From the NCBI RefSeq assembly GCF_015831355.1, contig NZ_JADWYR010000001.1, forward strand, positions 2,604,001 to 2,668,000: DNA of 64,000 nucleotides, in the 5' to 3' direction. The notes beneath the pieces are model-generated. The model was not told the origin of the DNA, did no database searches, and saw only the letters and a program-made list of their open reading frames with translations. Both the position numbers and the translations under genes were made by a program. Positions 1,152-3,857 of the stretch are shown piece by piece; the stretch's first letter is position 1; each line of letters begins with the position of its first letter. This DNA is from Panacibacter microcysteis (GTDB taxonomy: Bacteria > Bacteroidota > Bacteroidia > Chitinophagales > Chitinophagaceae).

Positions 1152-1931
1152 TTGCACTTTCCAGTTGACATAGCTATAGGCCCCGCAAAGATCTTACTGC
1201 ATAACATAACCGAGTTCCTTGGCTTCTTTATTGGCTTTCGTTATTTTCTTTACCTGCGTAAGAAGCAGGGAGATATTATCGGGCAGCCTAATCGGGTGTC
1301 TATACTTATTGCTGCCATCTTCGGCGCCTTTATCGGGAGCCGCCTGGTTGGCGGGCTGGAAGACCCGGTGAAAATGATTGCCGCTGACAATGTTTTTGTT
1401 TATTTCTACCAGCAGAAAACCGTATTGGGTGGGTTTTTAGGTGGCCTGCTCAGCGTAGAACTTGTAAAAAAGATTATCGGGGAACGTACTGCTTCCGGCG
1501 ACCTTTTTACCTATCCCATCATCCTTGCATTAATCATTGGCCGCATTGGCTGTTTCAGTATGGGTGTGTATGAAGAAACGTATGGATTGCCCACCACTTT
1601 GCCATGGGGCATAAAACTGGGCGATGCGTTCTACCGTCACCCTGTTGCTTTATACGAGGTGTTGTTCCTGGTTTTATTATGGTTTACTTTATTGCAACTG
1701 GAAGTGAGGTATGCATTGCAGAATGGAGCCCGTTTCAAGTTATTTATGATAGCCTACTGCCTGTTCAGGTTTATGCTCGATTTTGTAAAACCGCATTACA
1801 CATTCGGCTTTGGTTTATCAACTATACAGGTTACGGCCCTGCTGGGCCTGCTCTATTATTACCGTTATATGGTACAGCCTGCAAGCCTTATCGTGCAAAA
1901 ACGGCAAATGGTGCAGCAGGCTATCCGATAA
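1152..1931 (+). CDS. Degenerate prolipoprotein diacylglyceryl transferase (Lgt)-like membrane protein
   Basis: A 259-residue polytopic inner-membrane protein with the Lgt fold. It keeps GRIG (R131), RHPVALYE (163-169) and the late FRF...D helix. The residues regarded as essential in E. coli Lgt are changed: the Asn of GRxGNF is C134, the His of FHGGL is L96, and the Glu after the NG motif is V139. It is therefore unlikely to be the housekeeping Lgt and may act on another lipid or lipoprotein substrate. The start is a TTG, chosen because no in-frame ATG precedes the conserved N-terminus. A radical SAM gene of the tetraether-synthase type follows 163 nt downstream, with two small membrane proteins after it, suggesting one membrane-lipid operon. 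Family placement is firm; function is inference. Confidence 0.85.
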   Translation: MHFPVDIAIGPAKILLHNITEFLGFFIGFRYFLYLRKKQGDIIGQPNRVSILIAAIFGAFIGSRLVGGLEDPVKMIAADNVFVYFYQQKTVLGGFLGGLLSVELVKKIIGERTASGDLFTYPIILALIIGRIGCFSMGVYEETYGLPTTLPWGIKLGDAFYRHPVALYEVLFLVLLWFTLLQLEVRYALQNGARFKLFMIAYCLFRFMLDFVKPHYTFGFGLSTIQVTALLGLLYYYRYMVQPASLIVQKRQMVQQAIR

Positions 1932-2094
1932 GCATCACGTATTGTGTTGTAAGAACCGCAGACGGCGATATGCTTAAGTATACATTTTGCGAAGAAGGAA
2001 AACTTACACAGCCCGTTGCAGGATTTTGTGAAGTAGTGATGATGATTGATTTCAGTAAGAGGATTGTTCATTACACCATTATATACTTTATACC

Positions 2095-3489
2095 ATGCCC
2101 GAACGGCCATATACCTACTACGATTTTACTGTCAGCCTATGCCCTGAATGTTTTAGAAGGATAGATGCAAAGATTGTATTTGAAGACAACAATGTCTTTA
2201 TGCTCAAAAGCTGCCCGGATCATGGCTTTCACAAAGTGCTGATTGCTACCGACCGGGAATACTATAAGAATATCCGGAATTACAACAAGCCCAGTGAGAT
2301 GCCTTTAAAATTCAATACGCAAACGCATTATGGCTGCCCGTACGATTGTGGTTTGTGTGCCGATCATGAACAGCATAGTTGCTTAACCGTGCTGGAAATT
2401 ACAGACCGCTGTAATCTTACCTGCCCCACCTGCTATGCCATGAGTTCTCCGCATTATGGAAGACACAGAACTTTGGAAGAAGTAGAGCGTATGCTGGATG
2501 TAATCGTTGCAAATGAAGGCACGCCTGATGTAGTACAGATCAGTGGGGGAGAGCCCACTGTGCATCCGCAGTTTTTTGAGATACTTGATATTGCCAGGAC
2601 AAAACCCATCAGGCACCTGATGGTCAATACGAATGGCATACGCATAGCAAAAGACAAAGTATTTGTTGAAAAGCTCGCTTCCTATATGCCCGATTTTGAA
2701 ATTTACCTGCAGTTTGATTCTTTCAGGCCCGAAGTACTGAAAACGCTGCGCGGGGAAGATCTTACAACGGTACGAAAGAAAGCGCTGGAAAACCTCAATG
2801 CTTACAATGTATCAACCACGCTGGTGGTTACCTTGCAGAAAGGCCTAAATGATGATGAAATAGGCCATATCATAGATTACGCGGTTCAGCAACCGTGTGT
2901 GCGTGGCGTAACTTTTCAGCCTACGCAGGTAGCAGGAAGGTTGCAGGATTTTAACCCGGCAACCGATCGTATTACGTTAACGGATGTACGGCAGAAAATC
3001 CTGGAACAAACCAATGTGTTCCAGCCAAACGATCTCATTCCTGTGCCTTGTAACCCCGATGCACTGGTGATGGGTTATGCGCTAAAACTGGCCGGCCAGG
3101 TTTTCCCGATGACACGTTACATAGACCCCGCTCACCTGCTGAATAACAGCCGCAACACCATCGTGTATGAACAGGATGAACAATTGCATGCGCACATGAT
3201 CAAAATTTTCAGCACCGGTATTTCTGTTGACAGGGTAGAAGACAATTTTAAAGAATTACTTTGTTGCCTGCCACAGGTACATGCACCGGGCCTTACGTAC
3301 AATAATTTATTCCGGATCGTCATTATGCGCTTTATAGATGCATGGGATTTTGATGTACGTGCCATTAAACGAAGCTGTGTGCACATTGTAAGCAAAGACA
3401 ACCGCATTATTCCTTTTGAAACAATGAATATGTTTTACCGCGATGATAAGGAGCATATTGTAAAAAAATACCAGCAGCAAAATGCGTAA
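2095..3489 (+). CDS. Radical SAM protein of the COG1964 / tetraether lipid synthase-like family
   Basis: A 464-residue radical SAM enzyme. The 4Fe-4S/SAM motif is C106-x3-C110-x2-C113 (DRCNLTCPTCYA). Upstream are extra cysteines C16, C19, C40, C81, C85, C88 and C96, the pattern of extra metal sites in the MJ0619/Tes family. Other hallmarks are ISGGEPTVHP, VNTNGIRIA, YLQFD, KGLNDDEIG, RGVTFQPTQVAGR and a late IPVPCNP. Archaeal Tes joins lipid chains through C-C bonds; bacterial homologues of this subfamily are mostly uncharacterised. The ATG at 2095 starts a conserved CPECF N-terminus. Its stop overlaps the start of a 26-codon membrane ORF. The pairing with an Lgt-like protein points to lipid or lipoprotein acyl chains as substrate, which is inference. 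Confidence 0.9.
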   Translation: MPERPYTYYDFTVSLCPECFRRIDAKIVFEDNNVFMLKSCPDHGFHKVLIATDREYYKNIRNYNKPSEMPLKFNTQTHYGCPYDCGLCADHEQHSCLTVLEITDRCNLTCPTCYAMSSPHYGRHRTLEEVERMLDVIVANEGTPDVVQISGGEPTVHPQFFEILDIARTKPIRHLMVNTNGIRIAKDKVFVEKLASYMPDFEIYLQFDSFRPEVLKTLRGEDLTTVRKKALENLNAYNVSTTLVVTLQKGLNDDEIGHIIDYAVQQPCVRGVTFQPTQVAGRLQDFNPATDRITLTDVRQKILEQTNVFQPNDLIPVPCNPDALVMGYALKLAGQVFPMTRYIDPAHLLNNSRNTIVYEQDEQLHAHMIKIFSTGISVDRVEDNFKELLCCLPQVHAPGLTYNNLFRIVIMRFIDAWDFDVRAIKRSCVHIVSKDNRIIPFETMNMFYRDDKEHIVKKYQQQNA

Positions 3490-3562
3490 TAGAATTGGTA
3501 GGGTGATACATGCAGGTACGGCTTTGCTGATTGGTTTTGCCCTTTTGTACCTTATAATATAA
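3482..3562 (+). CDS. 26-residue single-pass membrane miniprotein (candidate)
   Basis: An ATG at 3482 overlaps the last codons of the radical SAM gene and opens 26 codons ending TAA at 3562. The product has a short basic N-terminus (MRNRIGRVIH) followed by one hydrophobic helix (AGTALLIGFALLYLII). The overlap with the upstream stop suggests translational coupling, and a second small membrane protein starts 16 nt downstream. It matches no family I recognise and may be chance, but position and composition fit an operon-encoded small membrane partner. Confidence 0.45.
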   Translation: MRNRIGRVIHAGTALLIGFALLYLII

Positions 3563-3578
3563 ACCACAAACTACCTAT

Positions 3579-3857
3579 ATGGGACTATCTTCCAAATTTC
3601 TGCTGATCAATATTGCCATTGCAATCGTGATCACTGTTATCATCATGTTTGCCAATGGTGCAAACTTCTCCAATGCGGCAGATTTCGCTATAAGCTTTGG
3701 TATCATCTGCCTTATACTGGGCATACTGAATTTACTGGCCGGCATCCTGTTCCTGTTATCCGGTAATCGTGTATGGCGCAGTGTTTTTTTGATCAACGCG
3801 GCCATCCTGCTTGTCCTCAGTGGTATATCGTGTGGTGGCGGAGGCGTTTTGGGGTAA
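3579..3857 (+). CDS. Small integral membrane protein
   Basis: A 92-residue hydrophobic protein with about three membrane helices (roughly 7-26, 33-60 and 68-85), ending in a Gly-rich tail. No catalytic motif is visible and I do not recognise the family. It is the last gene of the Lgt-like / radical SAM group and ends 12 nt before the convergent deaminase gene. The shared orientation and short spacing suggest cotranscription, so a role with the membrane enzymes upstream is plausible but unproven. Confidence 0.7.
   Translation: MGLSSKFLLINIAIAIVITVIIMFANGANFSNAADFAISFGIICLILGILNLLAGILFLLSGNRVWRSVFLINAAILLVLSGISCGGGGVLG

Follow-up and report, generated by a model that had tools for sequence, protein, structure and literature searches.

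Genes for an Lgt-like membrane protein and for a radical SAM enzyme with the fold of archaeal Tes form a near-obligate pair that is kept across about ten bacterial phyla, and this conclusion is strongly upheld by the genome surveys described below. Together with a small membrane protein encoded downstream, the pair appears to constitute a so far undescribed system for the modification of lipids or lipoproteins, the novelty being provisional. In the window (the whole stretch of 64,000 nucleotides that was analysed) the following features were recognised, with the evidence for each given in brackets.

1152..1931, + strand: Lgt-like integral membrane protein of 259 aa with a TTG start (PF01790 match, AlphaFold2 model, residue mapping).
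2095..3489, + strand: radical SAM enzyme of the Tes/TrsS superfamily, 464 aa, belonging to a third, Lgt-paired clade (NCBIfam, model, tree, residues).
3482..3562, + strand: hydrophobic ORF of 26 aa that overlaps the end of the radical SAM gene, a candidate only (position and sequence).
3579..3857, + strand: small membrane protein of 92 aa with a conserved C85, the putative acceptor (tail-Cys ORF counts, profile match, topology).

The two enzyme genes were confirmed where an initial annotation of this DNA had placed them (ORFs 1152-1931 and 2095-3489, both on the + strand). The TTG start of the Lgt-like ORF is supported by its relatives, whose N-termini (MHFPV or MQFPV) begin at the same place. 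The same annotation counted two small membrane proteins; 3579-3857 is solid, while 3482-3562, with its 26 aa, is doubtful. The slot of this short ORF holds a second small-protein copy of 86-90 aa in relatives, of which it is perhaps a remnant. No SAM methyltransferase gene lies beside the pair in the window. The genome of the window contains two further LGT genes, L001 and L002, the latter adjoining an apolipoprotein N-acyltransferase gene, and the Lgt-like gene is therefore an extra paralogue. An additional canonical Lgt was also present in 9 of 10 carrier genomes checked besides that of the window.

Conservation of the pair in Bacteroidota, which the initial annotation had proposed as a check on its idea, was borne out. 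Within the family of the window's genome the radical SAM gene occurs in 19 of 119 genomes (70-100% identity) and is adjoined by the Lgt-like gene in 17 of them, the remaining two carriers (G056 and G064) having the Lgt-like gene elsewhere in the genome. Close relatives in the phylum have the pair adjacent in 24 of 26 cases, and in four distant phylum relatives (37-41% identity) the Lgt-like gene is a few genes away at most. In loci where other genes separate the two, these genes are apparently unrelated. A broad genome scan found adjacent pairs in 72 of 80 loci, most of the rest being at contig ends, and an overlap of about 8 bp between the two genes is common. These loci come from Bacillota, Pseudomonadota, Acidobacteriota, Cyanobacteriota, Planctomycetota, Chloroflexota, Armatimonadota, Elusimicrobiota, Actinomycetota, Kiritimatiellota and Bacteroidota, plus one archaeal MAG. 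The flanking neighbourhoods differ between carriers, and an aldo/keto reductase gene is found upstream in only four family loci. Since no other neighbour recurs, the module stands alone.

Co-occurrence was assessed in 395 Bacteroidota genomes with thresholds of E <= 1e-100 for the radical SAM gene and E <= 1e-20 for the Lgt-like gene. The former was present in 31 genomes, the latter in 32 and both in 31 (Fisher 2.8e-45, a significance that is overstated, as the test ignores relatedness), and the genomes with both include some (G056, G064, G149 and G382) in which the genes lie apart. Among 151 Paenibacillaceae the two genes occur in the same 24 genomes, side by side. It might be argued that the adjacency is without function and results from hitch-hiking or from vertical inheritance of a chance neighbourhood, all the more so as closely related genomes are not independent and the Fisher test is inflated by them. 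However, the pair is kept in about ten phyla while its neighbourhoods change, the genes co-occur even when unlinked, and their presence is patchy but matched in both the Bacteroidota and the Paenibacillaceae, so that we give this explanation, contradicted as it is by the co-occurrence counts, almost no credence.

The Lgt fold, as claimed in the initial annotation, is indeed kept. The protein is a member of PF01790 (76 bits, E 3.7e-21, gathering score 24.9), and the sole significant PDB match of its AlphaFold2 model, a confident one (pLDDT 96.3), is E. coli Lgt 5azb (E 3.4e-8, TM about 0.5). Its score for the TIGR00544 equivalog, 45.1 bits, is below the cut-off of 118.9. Residues were mapped on an alignment with 51 relatives and E. 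coli Lgt. Retained are R131, R206, Y202, E169 and G145, which correspond to R143, R239, Y235, E202 and G154, respectively, and there are conservative swaps of D210 for E243 and K213 for R246. In E. coli Lgt, R143 and R239 bind and activate phosphatidylglycerol, and R143, R239, Y235 and E202 bind and position it (PMC4728403). Both arginines, R131 and R206, are invariant across the 52 sequences of the Lgt-like subfamily.

Three residues that are essential in E. coli are replaced in the Lgt-like protein, Y26 by H17, H103 by L92 and N146 by C134; H17 is nearly invariant in the subfamily and C134 is invariant in its 52 sequences. The replacement of Tyr26 had been missed earlier. The initial annotation was right on the change of Asn146 to C134 and on the absence of His103, although the site of His103 is L92 and not L96. 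As proof of a new function the lost residues were too strong a claim, because two of the changes are shared by the host's ordinary, canonical Lgts: L001 and L002 have Tyr at the H103 place and Cys at the N146 place. The loss of these two residues is thus less telling, and by this alignment their replacement is not a specific loss of function. In the literature, Y, W or F and C are described at the H103 and N146 places of other Lgts, and a second mycobacterial Lgt homologue with Y26H and N146C is presumed to be only weakly active as an Lgt (PMC13251419). The supposed exchange of Glu151 for V139 depends on the alignment. Glu151 aligns to a 3-residue insertion of the Lgt-like clade which contains a conserved acidic residue (E141, motif G-x-x-[ED]-x-T-x-G), and an acidic equivalent is probably kept.

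The invariance of C134 in the 52 sequences could also be taken to mean that the Lgt-like fold has come to serve thiol/redox or metal-linked chemistry unrelated to lipids, with the small-protein Cys as redox partner, and the GCCYG motif of a distant clade of Lgt-like proteins, as well as the DUF4395 and ICMT-like neighbours in distant operons, would fit such a role. We regard it as quite improbable, given that the host's ordinary Lgts, like other distant Lgts, have Cys at the C134 place too and that the phosphatidylglycerol-binding arginines are kept.

The full Tes cysteine pattern that had been reported for the radical SAM protein is present, namely the rubredoxin-type residues C16/C19/C40/H43, the N-terminal cluster residues C81/C85/C88/H91 and the radical SAM cluster residues C106/C110/C113 (CX3CX2C). 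By sequence, the closest protein of solved structure is MjTes, an enzyme that joins lipid tails, and the model of the protein (pLDDT 85.8, with residues 369-399 poor) has MjTes 7tom as its best PDB match, over the whole length (E 4.5e-38, TMq 0.81), with weaker matches to the RiPP maturases SkfB and SuiB. Assignment of the protein to Tes itself was rejected, as cut-off, tree and diagnostic residues are all against it. It scores 288 bits with the NCBIfam Tes model NF045702 (cut-off 450) and 331 bits, over the full length, with the TrsS model NF045646 (cut-off 490), and is therefore below both. Eight Lgt-paired relatives score between 149 and 304 bits with the Tes model, and the unpaired L074 scores 494, which is over the cut-off. 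All 101 clade members examined have C96, C319 and C428, and 92 of them have Cys at the C390 place. The third C-terminal Cys of Tes (C470) is replaced by E or D in 91 members (E442 in the window protein), the labile Met439 of Tes is Met in 72 (M411 in the window protein), and Tyr459 is found in 0/101. In archaeal Tes enzymes Met439 and Tyr459 are described as completely conserved, and phosphatidic acid and archaetidylglycerol are ligands of MjTes (PMC9433317). We read the C-terminal cluster of the clade as retained but rebuilt.

In a 62-row tree, which was made by a quick method and has some long branches, the Lgt-paired radical SAM proteins come together, apart from the Tes-type L074, L075 and acidobacterial L204/L205 and also apart from the TrsS-like L206 and L201, which are adjoined by a methyltransferase gene. 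Where a member of the Lgt-paired clade has no Lgt-like neighbour, it lies at a contig end or the two genes are unlinked. The fork between L201 and the Lgt-paired clade is weakly supported, with the long-branched Lgt-paired L073 and L203 sitting beside it, and the TrsS side of the tree consists of TrsS-like genes only; no TrsS representative over the cut-off was found in the sampled Actinomycetota. Judged by its sequences, the Lgt-paired group is a clade of its own, neither Tes nor TrsS. Assignment to TrsS was rejected for a score below the cut-off, a separate place in the tree and residues that are against it.

The structural match to MjTes over the whole length favours a radical SAM enzyme that makes membrane-spanning or cross-linked lipids in bulk, as a bacterial synthase of tetraester or brGDGT type, with the Lgt-like protein as a lipid-handling or head-group-removing partner and the small protein as an accessory subunit. 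Many carriers (Bacteroidota, Bacillales) make iso-branched fatty acids, which counts for this explanation as well. A part in brGDGT synthesis has been suggested for Tes homologues of bacteria (PMC8941075). Yet cut-off and clade both set the protein apart from Tes, and the Lgt-paired clade has no Tyr459 (0/101), has E or D for the third C-terminal Cys in 91/101 and has the extra C96; moreover, two acidobacterial carriers have a separate Tes-type paralogue with no Lgt-like neighbour. The carriers include Pseudomonadota and Cyanobacteriota, which to our knowledge are not known for membrane-spanning lipids, and we know of no such lipids in commonly cultured carriers (Chitinophaga, Paenibacillus), both of which count against it. 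We consider bulk lipid synthesis unlikely on balance, if still a serious contender.

Conserved tail-Cys small proteins, as the likely acceptor, had not been seen in the earlier annotation. Directly downstream in most Bacteroidota and Bacillota loci there is a very divergent hydrophobic protein of 60-145 aa, the last helix of which contains a conserved Cys 2-13 residues before the C-terminus. The tail pattern is ...LLSxGIxLLIGFSTC(G/S)..., with ...GLLIGAGITFLLNAACFG... as the Bacillota version, and in the window protein the Cys is residue 85 (LSGISCGGGGVLG; ...LLVLSGISC, then GGGGVLG). The strict tail-Cys motif was found downstream in 41/113 loci vs 0/488 control windows and the relaxed motif in 65/113 vs 11/488, counts that are drawn from related sequences and do not represent independent events. 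Regular expressions found no tail-Cys ORF in about 40% of loci, mostly in Proteobacteria and Acidobacteria, and the module may not always include the small protein. Several loci have 2-5 tandem copies. In 20 rows read as three-helix, K+R counts were 53 for the N-terminus, 10 for loop 1-2, 42 for loop 2-3 and 5 for the C-terminus, which predicts a topology with the N-terminus inside and the tail Cys outside. A small-protein profile run on 14 genomes gave clear matches only where the module is present (4.3e-16 in the window's own genome), one weak match of 0.012 in a module-less genome and no match in the carrier G382. No Pfam or NCBIfam family was over its cut-off for the small proteins. The NCBIfam lipo-invert C-terminal anchoring domain (NF058595) was considered and rejected, its matches being sub-threshold only (E 0.08-1.1) and absent from most of the small proteins.

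Small ORFs that are divergent apart from a single conserved stretch in the tail, that occur in tandem copies and that adjoin a multi-cluster radical SAM gene resemble precursor/maturase pairs. The radical SAM enzyme might accordingly modify the small protein itself, for example through a thioether or a C-C linkage in its tail, with the Lgt-like protein as membrane chaperone, exporter or second modifier, and the weaker structural matches to SkfB and SuiB agree with this. We find it distinctly unlikely: the fold is Tes-like and not of SPASM/RRE type, the tail Cys is predicted to be outside, away from a cytoplasmic enzyme, and the tail-Cys ORF is absent from some loci.

Lgt works at the outer face of the membrane, where a thiol receives the diacylglyceryl group of phosphatidylglycerol, and Tes acts on the tails of phosphatidylglycerol-like lipids. 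The two folds are most naturally taken to indicate a role in modifying lipids or lipoproteins. We tentatively favour, as a possibility somewhat short of probable, a dedicated protein-lipidation (or lipid-tailoring) system in which the Lgt-like enzyme would lipidate the tail Cys and the radical SAM enzyme would alter the lipid tails. The cytoplasmic Tes-like enzyme would abstract hydrogen from the tails of phosphatidylglycerol-type lipids and then modify or join them, by C-C joining, a C-S bond or another alkyl modification. The membrane-embedded Lgt-like enzyme would hold the modified phosphatidylglycerol through its two retained arginines and move diacylglyceryl, at the outer face, onto the tail-Cys thiol of the neighbouring tiny membrane protein. 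The analysis establishes the pairing and co-occurrence, the folds, the retained residues and the tail Cys with its predicted outer-side position; the tail Cys as acceptor, phosphatidylglycerol as the lipid and the effect of the radical SAM enzyme on that lipid are all inferred. Points against lipidation are that the E. coli-essential Y26, H103 and N146 all differ in the Lgt-like protein, that the mycobacterial homologue with Y26H and N146C is presumed to be weakly active, that the active sites of the two enzymes are on opposite membrane faces, that many loci gave no tail-Cys ORF and that the tail sequence resembles a lipobox only loosely. A bolder form of the favoured reading is a new pathway, spread over many phyla, in which phosphatidylglycerol tailored or joined by the radical SAM enzyme, and possibly membrane-spanning, would pass through a dedicated Lgt paralogue to the tail Cys of a tiny membrane protein with several helices, without signal-peptide cleavage; taken as a whole, this is unlikely.

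Tes homologues in bacteria have been noted before (PMC8941075) and are proposed for brGDGTs without proof (PMC11868695). No published link between a Tes-like radical SAM enzyme and Lgt was found in the literature searched, where tetraethers and diacylglyceryl transferase were joined in one unrelated review. No description of the module or of its small proteins was found either, in a search that falls short of most subscription papers. Surveys count Tes homologues of bacteria as potential producers of the branched tetraether lipids that serve as climate proxies. Since most homologues reached here fall in the Lgt-paired, non-Tes clade, such survey counts may mislead; the clade is easily told from Tes by its Lgt neighbour, C96 and the lack of Tyr459. 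If the lipidation reading is true, bacteria would possess a non-canonical lipoprotein pathway in addition to the known one, using a lipid and tiny acceptors of its own.

Compared with known systems, the radical SAM (seleno)protein TrsS (NF045646) is the nearest NCBIfam model for the radical SAM protein (331 bits, full length), and C96 is common to TrsS-like proteins, but the protein is under the cut-off of 490, and the TrsS-like L206 and L201 have a SAM methyltransferase gene in place of an Lgt-like gene as neighbour. With the archaeal tetraether lipid synthase Tes, or GDGT-MAS (NF045702, 7TOL/7TOM), it shares the whole-length fold, the rubredoxin-type site, the N-terminal and radical SAM clusters, the Met439 equivalent (M411) and Cys residues for the C-terminal cluster; it differs in its 288 bits (cut-off 450), the lack of Tyr459, E442 for C470, the extra invariant C96 and the pairing with Lgt. 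Mss, the membrane-spanning lipid synthase, is a bacterial counterpart that is described as sharing the Tes catalytic architecture and joins fatty acyl chains; it is likened here by description only, and the accessible parts of its published accounts contain no link to Lgt that we could find (PMC13274423, PMC11868695). The predicted outer-side Cys of the small protein is like the lipobox Cys in position, although the tail-Cys sequence is only loosely lipobox-like. MSMEG_5408, the second mycobacterial Lgt homologue, has the same Y26H and N146C as the Lgt-like protein, a likeness drawn from its published description (PMC13251419). Lgt itself, the prolipoprotein diacylglyceryl transferase (PF01790, TIGR00544, 5azb), shares with the Lgt-like protein the fold, the GR-x-G core, the RHPxxLYE motif, both phosphatidylglycerol-binding arginines and the equivalents of Y235, E243 (as D) and R246 (as K). 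The Lgt-like protein differs from it in scoring 45 bits (equivalog 118.9), in H17, L92 and C134 and in the 3-residue insertion with E141, and its gene lies beside a radical SAM gene and is additional to canonical Lgt.

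The window carries a short reading frame beside its radical SAM gene:

3482-3562: 26-aa hydrophobic ORF, overlapping the stop of the radical SAM gene

In a same-genus relative this place is occupied by an 86-aa tail-Cys protein, a small membrane protein with a conserved Cys at the predicted outer end of its last helix, and the ORF is possibly a decayed copy. Small membrane proteins also adjoin the pair in Pseudomonadota (loci L130, L148, L158 and L167), but these have a Cys close to where an early helix ends (e.g. LFSGGC) instead of one in the tail.

The host genome also encodes ordinary Lgt paralogues, both having Tyr and Cys at the positions of E. 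coli H103 and N146, respectively:

L001, 1456-2748: ordinary Lgt paralogue
L002, 1384-2412: ordinary Lgt paralogue

Among remote relatives of the pair, the operons listed below run from radical SAM through an ICMT-like methyltransferase and/or DUF4395 to an Lgt-like gene, whose product has a GCCYG motif, and then a small membrane protein.

L071, 7053-10617: distant-branch operon
L072, 3435-6941: distant-branch operon
L090: distant-branch operon
L092: distant-branch operon

The module was also present in a MAG labelled Candidatus Thalassarchaeaceae (L159, 3395-5703), which may reflect either transfer or contamination.

Within the window's phylum, the product of L074 6864-8321 (genome G181) passes the NCBIfam model of the archaeal tetraether synthase Tes (494 bits; cut-off 450). 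Two acidobacterial genomes have, in addition to the Lgt-paired enzyme, a Tes-type gene without an Lgt-like neighbour:

L204, 5378-7711: separate long Tes-type radical SAM gene
L205, 4269-6455: separate long Tes-type radical SAM gene

For synthesis of branched tetraether lipids (brGDGTs), these unpaired genes are better candidates than the Lgt-paired enzyme.
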